Both the position numbers and the translations under genes were made by a program. Positions 55,540-62,026 of a stretch of 62,788 nucleotides of DNA are shown piece by piece. The notes under the pieces are model-generated. The model searched no databases. It was not told where the DNA came from and was given only the letters and a program-made list of their open reading frames with translations. The stretch is from Caryophanales bacterium. Its GTDB lineage: Bacteria; Bacillota; Bacilli; Paenibacillales; CANHCR01. How positions within the stretch are numbered: the first letter of the stretch is position 1; every line of letters begins with the position of its first letter. The DNA lies in assembly GCA_947459205.1 (NCBI GenBank), contig CANHCR010000010.1, positions 1 through 62,788 on the forward strand, in the 5' to 3' direction.

Positions 55540-55579
55540 CACTTTAGAGCACTTTAGAGCACTTTAGAGCACTTTAGAG
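55540..55579. repeat. Four tandem copies of a 10-bp repeat
   Basis: CACTTTAGAG occurs four times without a break directly after the reverse transcriptase stop, and a partial copy abuts it. It lies outside coding sequence. Confidence 0.97.
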
Positions 55580-55580
55580 T

Positions 55581-56610
55581 TCAACTTCGCAGAAACACAC
55601 ACTGCTCAAGCAATTTCGACCTCAAGCGATCGGTATGCCCATGTTTCGCGTGAGCCAACCAACTTTGCATGCTCCGGTGAATATCAGCGAAGTCCATCTC
55701 ACCACGAGCAAATTTCAACTTAAACTTGCGGATTTTGCGCTTCACTCGCTTCTTCGAGGAAGTCCGAATCTTGCGCACAACTTTGCCCGATTCCGTCAAA
55801 TAGGAATGGAAGCCAAGGTAGTCTACACCATTTCGGAGCGGGAATATTTGCGTCTTATCATTCAATTCGAGTCCAAGCCACGCCAAATGTTCACGAATGT
55901 TCGCCAAACATTGCTGCAAATGGGCTTTGTCAGGATGGATGAGCACGAAATCGTCCATATAACGCGAGTACCAACGGATGTTCAACTGTTCTTTGATCAT
56001 GCGGTCCATACGGTTCAAATAAAAGATGGCGAACCATTGCGAAGTCATGTTGCCGATGGGGATGCCGATGTTGCCTGTCGATGATGACGTCCAACAAGTG
56101 CAATAACTGGCGATCGGCAAGGTAAGGATAGAGCATTTCTTTCAGGCGGTCGTGTCGGATACGGTAAAAATATTTCAAGATGTCCGCTTTGAGTATGTAA
56201 CCGTCTGTCCCATGCTGGTGATAAAACTCGCGCATAAAGCGTGCCAAACGATACAAACCAAAATGGGTGCCTCTTCCCGGCCTGGAAGCACAATTGTCGT
56301 CAATCAGTTTACGATCGATGAACGGTGCGAGTACATTGTCGCAAAGGCTATGCTGCACGACGCGGTCACGATCGGGCAAACTCATGATCAGACGTTCTTT
56401 CGGTTCATAAATCGTGAATTCACGATATTTCCCCGACCGATAGCTGCCACTCATCAGTTCCTCTTGCAACTCGATCAAGTTGCGGTTCAAGTCGATTTCA
56501 AAACGAATGACTTCACGATTTCCTCGCTTTCCTCTACGTGCCAAGCGATGTGCATGGTACAAATGTTCAAACGTGTGGATTTGTTCATAAACGTTTTTCA
56601 GTCGCTTCAT
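55581..56610 (-). pseudogene. DGR-type reverse transcriptase, reading frame broken
   Basis: Reverse transcriptase of about 342 residues if the frame is joined. The first part (from ATG 56610, AGGGGG 5 nt upstream) starts MKRLKNVYEQIHTFEHLY and has REFTIYEPKERLI, a Arg-Pro-Gly-Arg-Gly turn and LKADILKYFY. After about 56080 the frame moves by one, and the second part carries IGIPIGNMTSQWFAIFYLN and the catalytic YMDDF in WYSRYMDDFVLIHP. GIPIGN-TSQ is the mark of diversity-generating retroelement enzymes. No maturase or integrase domain is present. The break could be a real mutation, a sequence error or, less likely, recoding. Confidence 0.85.
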
Positions 56611-56834
56611 CTTTACCCCCTGTCGTTGTGCCGACGGTCGCAACGTTCAAGTGTCGCTCAATCAGAACTGAAGCTTCGATCAAGCAACCTCTACCAGCAA
56701 CGTCCGCCGGCCAACAGTATGTGTTTATCCTGCAAAAAGAACAGGAAAGGGACAGAATTCCTTTGCCGTGTGTACGGACGGTCTCACATGATACTCGTAT
56801 CTGACGGTACGGCGAAGCGGGGCGCACTTTTATT

Positions 56835-56874
56835 GAAAAAATATCGCCTTACAGTATATGTGCGATATTTTCTC
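56835..56874. repeat. Hairpin 2 in the TR region
   Basis: 13-bp inverted repeat with one mismatch (arms 56835-56847 and 56862-56874, loop 14 nt). On the minus strand the first arm is GAGAAAATATCGC. It differs at only two positions from the arm of the other hairpin. Confidence 0.85.
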
Positions 56875-56934
56875 GGACACTTAACAGTCAGTAGTCAGTT
56901 TGTTAGCATTATCATTGTTGACATTACCGTCAAC

Positions 56935-56969
56935 GAGAAGATGTCGCATTAAAATAGCGACATCTTCTC
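56935..56969. repeat. Hairpin 1 in the TR region
   Basis: Perfect 13-bp inverted repeat GAGAAGATGTCGC / GCGACATCTTCTC (arms 56935-56947 and 56957-56969) with a 9-nt A/T-rich loop, lying between template blocks A and B. Confidence 0.93.
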
Positions 56970-57053
56970 AGGCACCTGCGGTCTCCAATCGTGACATTGC
57001 GTACATTGTTGTCATTCTCGGCGTTCGGGGTTTTTGGCAACCCTGTCCCTGTG

Positions 57054-57479
57054 TTACGACGGATAACGGCGCTTTTCACTTTTAATCCAAGCGCCCAGTA
57101 AGTTGCGGACATCATAAATGTGAAGGGCCATCTGCTCATGCTGTTTGGGCGTGATACAAGTCATCTCACGGGCAAGTGTAACGATATGGTCAAGTTCTTT
57201 GAGCGATGTGAGCGCCGCAAAAGAGAAATCGAGCCGTTTGGTGACACGCTCCGTATAGACTGCAGTGGCAAGTTCTTGTTTGGGGATGAACGTGTCATTC
57301 GCTTTATAAAGATTGGAAATGACATCAAGCGACAAGTTCTGCAGTTTAGCGACGAGTGAAAAGCGAAATTTCTTTGGCGCTGATTGCGTCACCTGAAAAA
57401 TATATGCAGACATGTTTTTTGCTTTCCTAATGACGGTCAGTTCCGACTCCTCTGTGCGATGATAACCGTTGCGGTTCAT
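57054..57479 (-). CDS. avd: Accessory variability determinant-like four-helix bundle protein (Avd)
   Basis: A 141-residue basic, all-helical protein of the S23/bAvd group. Family marks are SELTVIRKAKNMSAYIFQVT, APKKFRFSLVAKLQNLSLD and the C-terminal ALTSLKELDHIV ... RNLLGAWIKSEKRR. In DGRs Avd forms a pentamer that binds the reverse transcriptase and the template RNA and is needed for mutagenic cDNA synthesis. The start is ATG 57479 with AGGAGG 6 nt upstream. It lies between the first kinase target and the TR, the order known from the Bordetella phage BPP-1 element. Confidence 0.88.
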   Translation of the reverse strand: MNRNGYHRTEESELTVIRKAKNMSAYIFQVTQSAPKKFRFSLVAKLQNLSLDVISNLYKANDTFIPKQELATAVYTERVTKRLDFSFAALTSLKELDHIVTLAREMTCITPKQHEQMALHIYDVRNLLGAWIKSEKRRYPS

Positions 57480-57513
57480 CAGTATCCTCCTCATAAATGG
57501 CTAAAAATCTTCG

Positions 57514-57539
57514 TCGCCTGCTCGATCCGTCGCAGACGA
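57514..57539. repeat. Hairpin downstream of target gene 1
   Basis: TCGCCTGC / GCAGACGA, an 8-bp stem with one G-T pair and a 10-nt loop, inside a roughly 100-bp element (about 57505-57605) that recurs after target gene 2. On the coding strand ATTTTT follows, so it may also terminate transcription. DGRs commonly need such a hairpin after the variable repeat. Confidence 0.7.
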
Positions 57540-57586
57540 AAAAACAGGGACCGTTCGGTTCGGCGGAGCTCACCTGCGCGATCTCG

Positions 57587-59650
57587 TTATTCCGATTTAA
57601 CCGTGTATGGTTTCTTCGCCGTACCTGCTCCATCCGATGTGAAGATAGCAGATTGCAGATTTAGCTGCAAAGCGGGGCGCACACCGATACCGTCGTCGCC
57701 CGCATAGGCGTCTCTGGGAATATTACCGCTAAGGCTGACAACGCGTACATCATTGTCATTCCCGACCAAAGGAGTGTTTAACCAATAATGCCATTTTTCA
57801 CCTACTTTCAATCTTTCATCTATGTATTTGCTATTTTTAACTGCCTCTGCTGTCGGTTCACCAATCCACCAATTTTCACCTAAAATTGTTCGGTTATCAT
57901 ACATATACTCTTTCAAATCTTTCACCGACAGTAAAAAAACCTTATCGTTCATGTTTTTGTACCAAGCGGAGTCATAATTTTTAACAACATTTACGATACT
58001 CTCATTATAAATATGACCTACGTTGCCACCATCAGCCTGATTTTCATCAATTGTCGCTAGCAAAACCTTGTGTATACGAGGTTTGATGTAACCTCGTTCT
58101 TTTTTCGTAAAATTACCATCGGCCAAAAATCCTTTTTCCATGTCATAAAAGTTCTCTCCATCCCACATATTATCAGCATTAGGTCGATTTTGCTTCCAAG
58201 AAATAGACCGTTCGTCGCTATTCAACCACTGAGTTAGATTTGCATTTTCATAGTTATTGCTACCAAAATCTCTTCGGGTACCCTCTGGATGATATTTTCC
58301 TGCCGCATCAAACGCCTTAATACTTATGATCTTATCACTAAACAACATCGGATTGTCGTCCTCGTCCTTATGAATCACGCGCCAAATAATCGGTTGATTG
58401 TAATATTTTCCGAAGCGGATGTAGTCGCCGATTTTGAGGTTTGGAATATTTCTGTTTCTAACTTCTGATGTTGTTTGTTCTAATCCAACAGGAAAAACAG
58501 TAGTTACTGTCTGATTAACAGAAATAGAAATAAACGAGATTACTATGAAAAACATAATTATCCCAACAGCAATCATAATAAGAGTCCATTCAAAAACATT
58601 AAAATCCGTCCACTTTTGAGGATTAGTTATACTTTTTTGAATTTCTACATAATCTGTAACTTGCATTTTTGGCTTTGTATCCAAAACATCAACCAACGCC
58701 TGCTGAAACTCCGTCATCGACTGCCAGCGCTCAGCCCCGCGGATCGCCAAACCCTTCATGACCGCTTGCTCTACGTTCGCAGGAACACCCGCCACTACAC
58801 GACCGAGCGGCTCAACCACCTCTTCTTCCATACGCGCCATCGCATCGGCCGGCACCACACCTGACACCGCCGCATAGAGCGTCGCCGACACTGCATACAC
58901 ATCGGTCCACGGTCCCTGTTTGCCGCGCGACGAATATTGCTCACTCGGCGCATAGCCCGGCTTCAAGATGACCGACAAACTTTTGCTTACGTCGCCGAGC
59001 GACTGGCGCGCCGCCCCGAAGTCGAGCAACTTCACACGTTTGTCGCGCGTAATGTATATATTGTCGGGACTGACGTCACGATGCAGCATGCTGACGGAGT
59101 GTACCTCGCGCAGCGCATCCATCACCGGCGCCATGATCTGCAGCGCGTCTTGTAACGGAATGTGTCCGCCCTTCTGCGCCAAATATTGTTTCAGCGTCAC
59201 CCCTTCGACATACTCCATGACGATATAAGCAGTGTTGTTCGCATGAAAAAAGTCGAGAATTGAGACGATGCCTGGGTGGTTGTTGAACTTGGCGAGTGTG
59301 CGCGCCTCATCGAGAAACTTGTCCATGCCGTGCTGAAAATGCTCTGAGCGTTCCCCGGAGTAGACCATGATGTTGGTCTGTTGTAGGGCGCGGGTTGCAA
59401 AATCGCGCGGCAAATATTCCTTGATGGCGATTTTTTGGCGAAGCATCAAGTCGAGTGCGAGATAGGTGTTGCCGAAGCCGCCCGAACCGAGAATGCGGCC
59501 GATCAGATACTTGTTATGGAGCAATGTTCGCAGTGGCAACGCGTGCGGTTCTGCCGGCAAGTAGCGGTCATCAACGCTGCAACTCGGGCAGACGGCTTGT
59601 CCGGATTGTTTTTCGGACATGCAGTTCATACAAATGTAGTTTGTGTCCAC
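57587..59650 (-). CDS. DGR target 1: zinc-ribbon Ser/Thr kinase, membrane helix, DUF6273-like variable domain
   Basis: 687 residues from GTG 59650 (AGGTGAG 6 nt upstream). A zinc ribbon (CMNCMSEK..CPSC, residues ~7-24) leads to a Hanks-type kinase (GSGGFGNTY, IAIKEY, LHRDVSPDN, LLDFGAAR, KPGYAPSEQY). One membrane helix follows at ~353-378. The extracellular DUF6273-like domain (~406-685) has IIWRVIHKD, LTQWLNSDE and DKVFLLSVKDL. The variable repeat codes for ~623-661, just before VRPALQLNLQSAIF. All kinase catalytic residues are present. It signals inward from a diversified ectodomain (inference). Confidence 0.87.
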   Translation of the reverse strand: MDTNYICMNCMSEKQSGQAVCPSCSVDDRYLPAEPHALPLRTLLHNKYLIGRILGSGGFGNTYLALDLMLRQKIAIKEYLPRDFATRALQQTNIMVYSGERSEHFQHGMDKFLDEARTLAKFNNHPGIVSILDFFHANNTAYIVMEYVEGVTLKQYLAQKGGHIPLQDALQIMAPVMDALREVHSVSMLHRDVSPDNIYITRDKRVKLLDFGAARQSLGDVSKSLSVILKPGYAPSEQYSSRGKQGPWTDVYAVSATLYAAVSGVVPADAMARMEEEVVEPLGRVVAGVPANVEQAVMKGLAIRGAERWQSMTEFQQALVDVLDTKPKMQVTDYVEIQKSITNPQKWTDFNVFEWTLIMIAVGIIMFFIVISFISISVNQTVTTVFPVGLEQTTSEVRNRNIPNLKIGDYIRFGKYYNQPIIWRVIHKDEDDNPMLFSDKIISIKAFDAAGKYHPEGTRRDFGSNNYENANLTQWLNSDERSISWKQNRPNADNMWDGENFYDMEKGFLADGNFTKKERGYIKPRIHKVLLATIDENQADGGNVGHIYNESIVNVVKNYDSAWYKNMNDKVFLLSVKDLKEYMYDNRTILGENWWIGEPTAEAVKNSKYIDERLKVGEKWHYWLNTPLVGNDNDVRVVSLSGNIPRDAYAGDDGIGVRPALQLNLQSAIFTSDGAGTAKKPYTVKSE
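57670..57783 (-). repeat. Variable repeat 1 (VR1)
   Basis: About 114 nt at the 3' end of target gene 1, encoding NTPLVGNDNDVRVVSLSGN onward and ending in GTGCGCCCCGCTT, shared with the TR. The 39-nt core (57737-57775) aligns gap-free with the template at 56993-57031, with 11 differences, 6 at template adenines. Confidence 0.75.
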
Positions 59651-59706
59651 AGTGGGCTCACCTGCTTTCAAGTAATTAAAGTTATTAGAATATCGAAAAA
59701 TCGTCG

Positions 59707-59732
59707 TCGCCTGCTCCATCCGTCGCAGGCGA
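59707..59732. repeat. Hairpin downstream of target gene 2
   Basis: TCGCCTGC / GCAGGCGA, a perfect 8-bp stem with a 10-nt loop, the counterpart of the hairpin after target 1. The surrounding ~100 bp (59695-59797) is clearly similar to 57505-57605. One arm change is compensated as G-T in the other copy. Confidence 0.72.
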
Positions 59733-59779
59733 TCCAAGCGGGACCGATAGGTTCGGTGGGGCTCAACTACGCGGTCTGT

Positions 59780-62026
59780 TTATTGCACTTGGACCGTGTA
59801 CGGATTTTTCTCCGTACCTGCTCCATCCGATGTGAAGATCGCAGATTGCAGATTTAGTTGCAAAGCGGGGCGAACACCAACGTCGTCACCGCGAGCATGG
59901 TTGCCGTAGTGGACGCCACCAGCATCGTAGACAAAGCGCACAACGCTGCCATACTCGACGTTAGGGGTATTTAACCAATAATACCACTTTTTACCTACTT
60001 TTAAACCATCGTTTTCATACGTACTATTAGCAACAGCCTCCGCTGTCGGTTCACCAATCCACCAGTTTTCACCGAATGTTAATCGGTGATCATACACATA
60101 CTCTTTCAAATCTTTCACCGACAGTAAAAACACCTGATCCGTCACGTTCTCATACCAAGCCGAATCGTAATTCTGTACAACTTTAGTGATATTGGAATCA
60201 TATTGATGCACGTTGTTCCCGCCATCCGCCTGATTGCTATCAATTTCAGCTAACAAAACCTTGTGCGTACGAGGTTTAATGTAACTTCGTTCAGCAGCCG
60301 TAAAGTGGTCACTTGCTAGGAAACCTTTTTCCTGATCATAAGGATTATCTCCCCACGTATTTTCTTTCGTCGGTCGGTTCTGCCACCAATCAATTTTTTG
60401 TTCATCACTATTCAGCCATTGACGAAGATTTGATTTCTCATAAAAATTACTCCCCCACGATTCTCTATTAGAATTCGAGTGATACTCCCCTCTCGCATCA
60501 AACGCCTTGATACTAATAATCTTGTCGCTAAACAACATCGGGTCTCCATCCTTATCATTGTGGATCACCCGCCACAAAATCGGCGCCTTGTTATATTTTC
60601 CGAATTGCACATACTCGCCAATCTCCAGTTCGTCGCGTCCAACCTTCAATTCTACCCGTCCATTCGCATGAAACGCTGTGCCAGCCTTTGGCTGTTGTGC
60701 AACCACACTGTCCGCCTGCTCTTGGTTGAACACATACTCAATCAGCAGTTTGTTTTCTGGTACCCCTCGATCCAACAACTCCTGCTTCACTTGCTCAATC
60801 GGCAGACCGACATAATCGCCATGACTTTTGTCCATTAAAATAAACCAACCCAAATACAGCAAAAGCACCGATAGCACCGCAACCCCCGAGCCAATCGTCC
60901 ACCGATTCCATTTGATGCGAATGCCGGGTTTACGACTAATAGGCGGTGTTGTATCTACCGAATCCTTTTCATCCGCATTAGCGCTTACAGACACATCGAG
61001 TTTGAGCGGTGTGGGTTTGGCAACATGCTGCTTGACCGCTTGGCTCACCGACTCGCCATCCGCCTGAATGTGCAACGCCCGCTGAAACGCCTCCACCGTT
61101 TGAAAACGATCTCTGCCGCGCACCGCAAGCGCCGTCATGATGCCTTTTTCGATATCGGCAGGGATGCTGGCGACAATTTTCGACAACGGCACGAGCGTAT
61201 CTTCGTCAAAACGGTCGAGCGAGTCGGGCGGCAAAACGCCCGTCACACAATGATAAATCGTCGCCGCCACCGCATAAATATCCGTCCACGGTCCCTGTTT
61301 GCCACGCGAACGATACTGCTCCTCCGGCGCATAACCCGGCTTCAAGATCACCGACAAACTTTTGCTCGCCTCACCCATCGCATGGCGCGCCGCCCCGAAA
61401 TCGAGCAGTTTCACCTGGCGTGTGGCCGTGATGTATATGTTCTCGGGACTGATGTCGCGGTGCAAAATGCCGGCGCCATGCACCTCCCGCAGCGCATCGA
61501 GCACAGGCGCGATGATCTCCAACGTCTGCTCGAGCGACAACTTGCCGCCTTTGCGCTGCAGATATTCTTTGAGCGTAATGCCGTCGATGTACTCCATCAC
61601 GATATACGCGGTGTTGTTCTCGTGGAAAAAGTCGATGATTGAAACGATGCCGGGATGATCGTTGAATCGCGAGAGCGTTTTCGCCTCCTCCAAAAACTTA
61701 TCCATGCCGACGCGGTACTGACTGGCCGTCGTCTCGTCGACCAACGTCACTTCCTGCTCCTCAATGCGGCGCGAGGCGATGCCGTATGGCATGTACTCTT
61801 TGATCGCACACTTGCGGTCCAAGTTTAGATTGAAGGCCAAGTACGTATTGCCGAAACCACCCGAACCGAGCAGTTTGCCGATCAAATAGCGATTTTGCAA
61901 CACCAAACCAGGTTGCATCGCATTGAGCGTTTTTTGTAGTTTTTTGTCGTCCGTGTTGCACGATGCGCAAATGCCGGGTTGCGCTTTAGGTGCCATACAA
62001 TTGAGGCAGCGATAATAGTTGACCAT
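59780..62026 (-). CDS. DGR target 2: zinc-ribbon Ser/Thr kinase, membrane helix, PASTA and DUF6273-like variable domain
   Basis: 748 residues, a paralog of target 1. Zinc ribbon (CLNCMAPK..CASC), kinase at ~43-300 (GSGGFGNTY, CAIKEYMP, LHRDISPEN, LLDFGAAR, KPGYAPEEQY), membrane helix ~375-400, a PASTA-like domain ~402-460 (DYVGLPIEQVKQELLDRGV) that may sense wall fragments, then the DUF6273-like domain ~465-745. The variable repeat covers ~684-722, before VRPALQLNLQSAIFTSDG. GGGGAG precedes the ATG by about 11 nt. Target 1 lacks the PASTA part, so the pair diverged in the extracellular stalk. Confidence 0.88.
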   Translation of the reverse strand: MVNYYRCLNCMAPKAQPGICASCNTDDKKLQKTLNAMQPGLVLQNRYLIGKLLGSGGFGNTYLAFNLNLDRKCAIKEYMPYGIASRRIEEQEVTLVDETTASQYRVGMDKFLEEAKTLSRFNDHPGIVSIIDFFHENNTAYIVMEYIDGITLKEYLQRKGGKLSLEQTLEIIAPVLDALREVHGAGILHRDISPENIYITATRQVKLLDFGAARHAMGEASKSLSVILKPGYAPEEQYRSRGKQGPWTDIYAVAATIYHCVTGVLPPDSLDRFDEDTLVPLSKIVASIPADIEKGIMTALAVRGRDRFQTVEAFQRALHIQADGESVSQAVKQHVAKPTPLKLDVSVSANADEKDSVDTTPPISRKPGIRIKWNRWTIGSGVAVLSVLLLYLGWFILMDKSHGDYVGLPIEQVKQELLDRGVPENKLLIEYVFNQEQADSVVAQQPKAGTAFHANGRVELKVGRDELEIGEYVQFGKYNKAPILWRVIHNDKDGDPMLFSDKIISIKAFDARGEYHSNSNRESWGSNFYEKSNLRQWLNSDEQKIDWWQNRPTKENTWGDNPYDQEKGFLASDHFTAAERSYIKPRTHKVLLAEIDSNQADGGNNVHQYDSNITKVVQNYDSAWYENVTDQVFLLSVKDLKEYVYDHRLTFGENWWIGEPTAEAVANSTYENDGLKVGKKWYYWLNTPNVEYGSVVRFVYDAGGVHYGNHARGDDVGVRPALQLNLQSAIFTSDGAGTEKNPYTVQVQ
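59863..59975 (-). repeat. Variable repeat 2 (VR2)
   Basis: About 113 nt in target gene 2, encoding NTPNVEYGSVVRFVYDAGG onward and ending near GTTCGCCCCGCTT. The core (59930-59968) aligns gap-free to the template with 10 differences, 8 at template adenines. For example AAT becomes TAT, GTT and TTT, while neighbouring CGC and GTC stay unchanged. Confidence 0.78.

Follow-up and report, generated by a model that had tools for sequence, protein, structure and literature searches.

Does the 62,788-nucleotide stretch of DNA analyzed here (the window) carry a retroelement that rewrites the sensory ends of receptor kinases, and could it still do so? A first-pass annotation, read from the letters of the DNA, had described a diversity-generating retroelement (DGR) with two transmembrane kinases as targets and had proposed that the host diversifies the extracellular tips of these receptors. 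The window corresponds to contig C10 in a draft assembly of 73 contigs totalling 2.52 Mb. We find that the locus is a genuine DGR that has two kinases as targets and is probably inactive in cis.

Gene order and kinase targets

The minus strand carries, in order, two kinase genes, avd, an adenine-rich template repeat (TR) and a reverse transcriptase (RT) gene. This target-target-avd-TR-RT arrangement agrees with the target-avd-TR-RT order on one strand that had been reported earlier. Genes to the left of the cassette include the housekeeping genes proA and mtnW, and the locus therefore looks chromosomal. It is one of three recognizable DGR cassettes in the genome, with TR/RT loci on contigs C10, C42 and C71. 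The cassette resembles that of Bordetella phage BPP-1 (mtd-avd-TR-brt) in its gene order, Avd, RT family, adenine-linked differences between TR and variable repeat (VR), and lectin-like target domain. Unlike BPP-1, whose TR is a continuous 134-bp repeat, the window's cassette is chromosomal and has two kinase targets, a TR split by hairpins and a frameshifted RT. PADLOC matches to PD-T4-6, MAD6 and DRTs look like generic kinase and RT similarity and were set aside.

Target 2 (59780–62026, minus strand) is a zinc-ribbon Ser/Thr kinase of 748 amino acids with a membrane helix, a PASTA domain and a C-terminal DUF6273 domain (Pfam matches to Pkinase, 1.7e-33; PASTA, 1.5e-6; and DUF6273, 1e-16). 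Target 1 (57587–59737, minus strand; 716 amino acids, with an uncertain TTG start) likewise combines zinc ribbon, Ser/Thr kinase, membrane helix and C-terminal DUF6273 (Pkinase, 2.7e-31; DUF6273, 4.1e-15), PASTA being matched in target 2 alone of the two. The ribbon (CxxC...CxxC) and a single hydrophobic membrane segment are visible by eye in both proteins and, with the Pkinase matches, bear out the earlier description of two zinc-ribbon kinases with a membrane helix. Both sequences also keep the catalytic motifs (HRD, DFG, glycine loop and lysine). The pair has the catalytic motifs, membrane helix (by eye) and outer sensor of PASTA/Hanks Ser/Thr receptor kinases.

Published modelling gives DUF6273 a C-type-lectin fold that bears the VR on a surface hairpin (PMC10743442), which makes a diversified outer tip a reasonable reading of these receptors for the past. 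The AlphaFold model of DUF6273 has a mean pLDDT of 38, the lectin-fold assignment resting on PMC10743442 and the DUF6273 identity on the HMM. The role for which the cassette evolved would have been to rewrite the C-type-lectin-like DUF6273 domains at the tips of membrane Ser/Thr kinases. By analogy with known DGRs, Avd and RT in the working state would have reverse-transcribed the TR RNA into a cDNA randomized at adenines, and this cDNA would have replaced the 3′ ends of both kinase genes. The outer lectin tip would then have bound differently and the inner kinase responded to a different input. Such a rewritable tip would let the bacterium alter its sensing with the signalling core unchanged. 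The earlier proposal of tip diversification is thus retained for the past; its present tense is not supported, given the frameshifted cis RT, the lack of an intact RT in the assembly, the split TR and the VR length.

The kinase pair had also been called an uncommon cargo. It is less unusual than that, since kinases are the most frequent functional domain of cyanobacterial DGR targets (PMC7517822), and kinase-lectin and DUF6273 DGR targets are already published. The cyanobacterial proteins also join a Ser/Thr kinase to a C-terminal lectin-type variable domain, with more targets elsewhere in the genome. They differ in that the window's domain is a DUF6273 behind a membrane helix, with a zinc ribbon and sometimes PASTA, and in that its kin include a PP2C phosphatase. 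Tentaclins and other gut-phage targets (PMC10743442) share the DUF6273 domain, and phage nd12 has an RT that shares 53% identity with that of C71. These are, however, phage proteins with Ig-like domains and are proposed to be receptor binders, whereas the window's targets are kinases.

Reverse transcriptase and Avd

The RT is spread over two overlapping open reading frames on the minus strand (55930–56643 and 55581–56120). The N-terminal part (56076–56610, in the first frame) runs from an ATG behind an RBS-like stretch to the frameshift and was assigned with a PHROG RT match (1.7e-65) and alignment to the C71 RT. The C-terminal part (55581–56075), in the other frame, has the GIPIGNMTSQ and YMDDF motifs (RVT_1, 1.4e-11; PHROG RT, 4.2e-60). 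Alignment places the frame break at about 56075; the window lacks 8 nt there relative to the C71 paralogue, and this deficit puts the half with GIPIGNMTSQ and YMDDF out of frame. Programmed frameshifting or a split RT was considered and rejected, there being no slippery site and no clear RBS ahead of the second half.

In a tree that used the window RT read through the frameshift, DGR-type RTs split from group II intron RTs on a 100/100 branch. The window RT lies inside the DGR clade, as the first-pass annotation had claimed, and not outside it, the outcome named there as contrary. It groups with the DGR RTs of BPP-1, Prosthecochloris, phages and metagenomes; its nearest neighbor is C71, followed by L065–L067. 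The tblastn matches include known DGR RTs, among them BPP-1 brt. The window RT is a DGR RT, but FRAMESHIFTED. Within the 73-contig assembly there is no intact RT, all three copies being broken or cut: the C71 RT is interrupted by a 102-nt insert and a frameshift, and the C42 RT, 94% identical to it, is cut off by the contig end. RT frameshifts or insertions, accompanied by non-A mutations between TR and VR, are documented for inactivated DGRs in the available portion of DiGReF (PMC3521204), a portion that makes no mention of conserved hairpin inserts in a TR.

The accessory gene avd (57054–57494, minus strand) has an intact reading frame. Its product matches Pfam PF22296 (bAvd; 9e-11, over the cut-off) and the PHROG family "Avd protein of DGR" (1.9e-20), and scores 1.1e-13 against NCBIfam NF033474, under that model's cut-off; what had been called Avd-like is Avd by HMM search. 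Related cassettes outside the genome are those of L065 and L067 (uncultured Clostridia; isolate S36M_St_31), with RTs about 55% identical, Avd proteins 40–54% identical and a DUF6273 target adjoining the RT. They differ from the window in having a contiguous, hairpin-free TR, an intact RT and a secreted multidomain target. In an ungapped scan of 60 nt, L065 and L067 show 12 and 8 A mismatches between TR and target, and 0 non-A.

Template, variable repeats and remote targets

A search for contiguous repeats gave no clean TR/VR pair, and the alignment was done piecewise. The TR consists of three short pieces on the minus strand separated by two hairpin-bearing inserts. Piece 1 (56993–57035) and piece 2 (56900–56931) are adenine-rich and match the 5′ and 3′ halves of the VRs, respectively; the IMH-like 3′ end (56811–56827, GTGCGCCCCGCTTCGCC) occurs at the three TR/RT loci C10, C42 and C71 only. 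The single template region described earlier is therefore interrupted by two inserts and is not a continuous repeat of the VRs. Kinases, Avd, DGR-type RT and adenine-rich region are all as first described; an intact RT and a continuous TR are not.

Each VR lies at the end of its DUF6273 domain, in the frame WLNTP-x7-VRxV-...-GVRPAL, at 59864–59968 (VR2, the 3′ end of target 2) and 57671–57775 (VR1, the 3′ end of target 1), both on the minus strand. With a one-codon gap in piece 2 positioned by eye, VR2 differs from the window TR at 19 of 27 A and 5 of 38 non-A positions (Fisher p = 3e-6), and VR1 at 14/27 A and 9/38 non-A (p = 0.019, weak alone). In the ungapped piece 1 only, the A versus non-A mismatches are 8/13 versus 1/20 and 6/13 versus 3/20. 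The adenine-linked changes claimed at the outset are thus strong for VR2 and weak for VR1. At the 3′ ends of TR and VR, the IMH common to TR and VR1 reads GTGCGCCCCGCTT(C/T)GC, with the VR1 form GTGCGCCCCGCTT(T)GC and GTTCGCCCCGCTTTGC in VR2.

Searching the rest of the genome, as the first-pass annotation had envisaged, revealed remote DUF6273 VRs that mostly match the C42 TR and not that of the window. At ten sites that distinguish the C10 and C42 TRs, VR1 is C10-type at 7 and VR2 at 6, which indicates that it was the window TR lineage that targeted the window kinases. The remote VRs on C26, C47, C71 and C43 are mostly C42-type at these sites, and the remote DUF6273 proteins were therefore targets of a C42-like TR. 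Mismatches between the C26 VR and the C42 TR are concentrated at adenines (p = 4e-8). The VRxV-to-GVRPA interval is 17 codons in VR1 and VR2 but 16 in most other VRs of this type in the genome, and VR1 and VR2 are one codon longer than the spacing of the TR pieces permits. Given this length mismatch, the window VRs are not simple, recent copies of the TR as it now stands. PMC12875486 names slippage by a codon in AAC repeats as one proposed cause of such changes. No intact TR turned up elsewhere in the genome with a 136-nt composite probe, whose matches were confined to VRs, the split TRs, the end of the TR on C71 and a handful of short, weak similarities.

DUF6273 is matched 38 times in the genome, with many of the matches in large proteins that also have FN3- or cadherin-like repeats. 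Zinc-ribbon kinases with the domain number at least four: the two in the window, one on C2 (L027:8554-10908) and one on C47 (L018:11732-13894). The C47 kinase adjoins a PP2C phosphatase with a DUF6273 tip (L018:13921-15651).

Hairpin inserts and the present state of the cassette

Both inserts were delimited on the minus strand by pattern and fold. Insert 1 (56932–56992, about 61 nt) contains hairpin 1 (56935–56969), with a 13-bp stem; insert 2 (56828–56899, about 72 nt) contains the related hairpin 2 (56835–56874), also with a 13-bp stem and one G-U pair. They stand where about 6 and 13 nt of TR, retained in the VRs, were replaced. If copied, they would bring in-frame stop codons into the targets; insert sequence was absent from every VR examined. 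The diverged C42 cassette has both inserts at the same places. Identity between C10 and C42 is about 90% across the TR block, compared with 63% for avd and 66% for RT (flanking genes about 64%), and in this comparison of two hairpin-bearing copies the hairpin arms differ at 1 of 52 positions and the rest of the block at 21 of 168 (p = 0.03), with varying loop lengths. The block has a strong predicted fold (z = -4.4), and a two-sequence consensus fold pairs the flanks of both inserts with each other, with negligible covariation.

The hairpin pattern occurs nowhere else in the genome, a search of 399 genomes of the class (398 besides its own) with a covariance model gave no further copy, the hairpins were not found in IMG/VR, and Rfam gave nothing above its gathering score. 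This confinement to two TRs led us to reject a dispersed repeat or mobile element. A jump of the RT over the inserts via the shared GCAATGTC was likewise discarded because the product would be without the GxV segment present in the VRs. On C71, the TR end has the canonical GGTGTGCGCCCC in place of insert 2, at the point where that contig begins. Insert 1 is not in the TRs of L065 and L067, and because these relatives have contiguous TRs the inserts are probably derived.

The conservation of the inserts argues for function; the broken RTs, stop codons and length mismatch argue for inactivation. On balance, this is probably a DGR on the chromosome whose earlier activity diversified receptor kinases and which has since become inactive in cis. 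As assembled, the cassette is defective because its RT is frameshifted, its TR is split by stop-bearing inserts and its VR and TR lengths differ. Unless an intact RT and TR lie in an unassembled gap, it most likely persists today as a cis-inactive cassette whose two receptors are frozen. Gaps of this kind could hide an intact RT, as C42 ends inside the RT and C71 starts at the TR end free of insert 2; the intact avd and the catalytic motifs of both kinases also speak against inactivity. The fully active BPP-1-type cassette first proposed would account for the gene order, Avd, DGR-type RT motifs and A-biased VR/TR differences. It is most improbable: barring errors in the assembled sequence, it is contradicted by the frameshifted RT, the interrupted TR with its in-frame stops, the longer VRs and the 5–9 non-A mismatches. 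That the sequence is wrong at the RT, with an assembly or sequencing error feigning the frameshift in a working enzyme and the inserts real but recent, is very unlikely. Errors are possible in a 73-contig draft in which the C71 RT also has an insert and a frameshift, but the 8-nt difference lies outside any homopolymer, the C71 RT is broken differently, and the kinds of RT inactivation seen here recur in the DiGReF portion cited above.

Simple decay does not readily explain why conservation is higher in the hairpin block than in the flanking genes. A functional split template, in which the hairpins would be a conserved working part of the DGR RNA and RT would be supplied in trans, accommodates this conservation, the predicted fold and the restriction of the hairpins to two genomic sites. 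Suggested roles include gating the template, binding Avd or RT, or being skipped or removed before cDNA use. The cassette-specific TR pieces between the hairpins, with piece 2 in particular, agree with different VR sets, which disfavors a recent transfer of the whole block between cassettes as one unit. We nonetheless regard a split template as unlikely: the case compares two sequences with almost no covariation, C71 is without insert 2 beside its TR end despite an RT so close to that of C42, plain skipping would not restore the replaced TR nucleotides and yield the observed VRs, and every RT seen is broken or cut. It is quite unlikely that the locus represents a DGR class in which two conserved hairpin domains divide the template RNA, govern its use and have to be bypassed or removed before cDNA reaches the target. 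Such a DGR would serve a network of kinases and a phosphatase with the same diversifiable sensor. The comparison of just two hairpin-bearing copies also limits the reading of past diversification followed by inactivation in cis.

The hairpin-split TR, with its putative function, is the one feature that could be new; the accessible part of the open-licence literature yielded no report of hairpin inserts within a TR. Should the TR hairpins turn out to be functional, they would make template structure a new point of control in DGR biology; should they not, the locus would be a clear case of a decaying DGR leaving a frozen receptor repertoire. A separate hairpin sequence lies 3′ of VR2 (GTACGGA-GAAAAA-TCCGTAC), with an imperfect counterpart at VR1 and a loop longer than the 4 nt given in PMC3240598 for the hairpin or cruciform just downstream of a DGR VR.

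Sequence similarity between the kinase targets

The two tandem kinase targets share 81% identity over a stretch (window positions 57496–57705 versus 59689–59898) that spans the 3′ end of the VR and non-coding sequence past the stop codon. Similarity extending through both regions points to an origin of the two genes by tandem duplication. Immediately downstream of the stop codon of the window's reverse transcriptase, the 10-bp sequence gcactttaga is repeated in tandem (55541–55580).

DUF6273 as a sensor domain

The putative C-type-lectin-like domain that bears the VR, DUF6273, has 38 matches in the whole genome (2.5 Mb), with several copies within single open frames of 3300–4400 amino acids, and none in 14 control genomes. 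By sequence, the only solved structure matched by the DUF6273 alignment was 9qa6 chain A, named IgA protease (E = 4e-34, residues 36–192). On contig C47 of the same genome, a PP2C phosphatase (L018:13921–15651) carries a membrane helix and a DUF6273 tip. A kinase likewise tipped with DUF6273 lies next to it, as do another PP2C and an FHA-ABC protein. The kinase and the DUF6273-tipped phosphatase are a pair with one sensor domain in common.

Other DGR loci in the genome and order

The reverse transcriptase on contig C71 (locus L017) is interrupted by a palindrome-rich insert of 102 nt, which had no further copy among the other loci fetched, and also contains a one-base frameshift. Within the order, the Avd profile family bAvd is rare (only 5 of 395 genomes). 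Genome G028, also from this order, holds a different DGR (locus L080) with a reverse transcriptase, an Avd-like gene and, upstream, a target of apparent formylglycine-generating-enzyme type.
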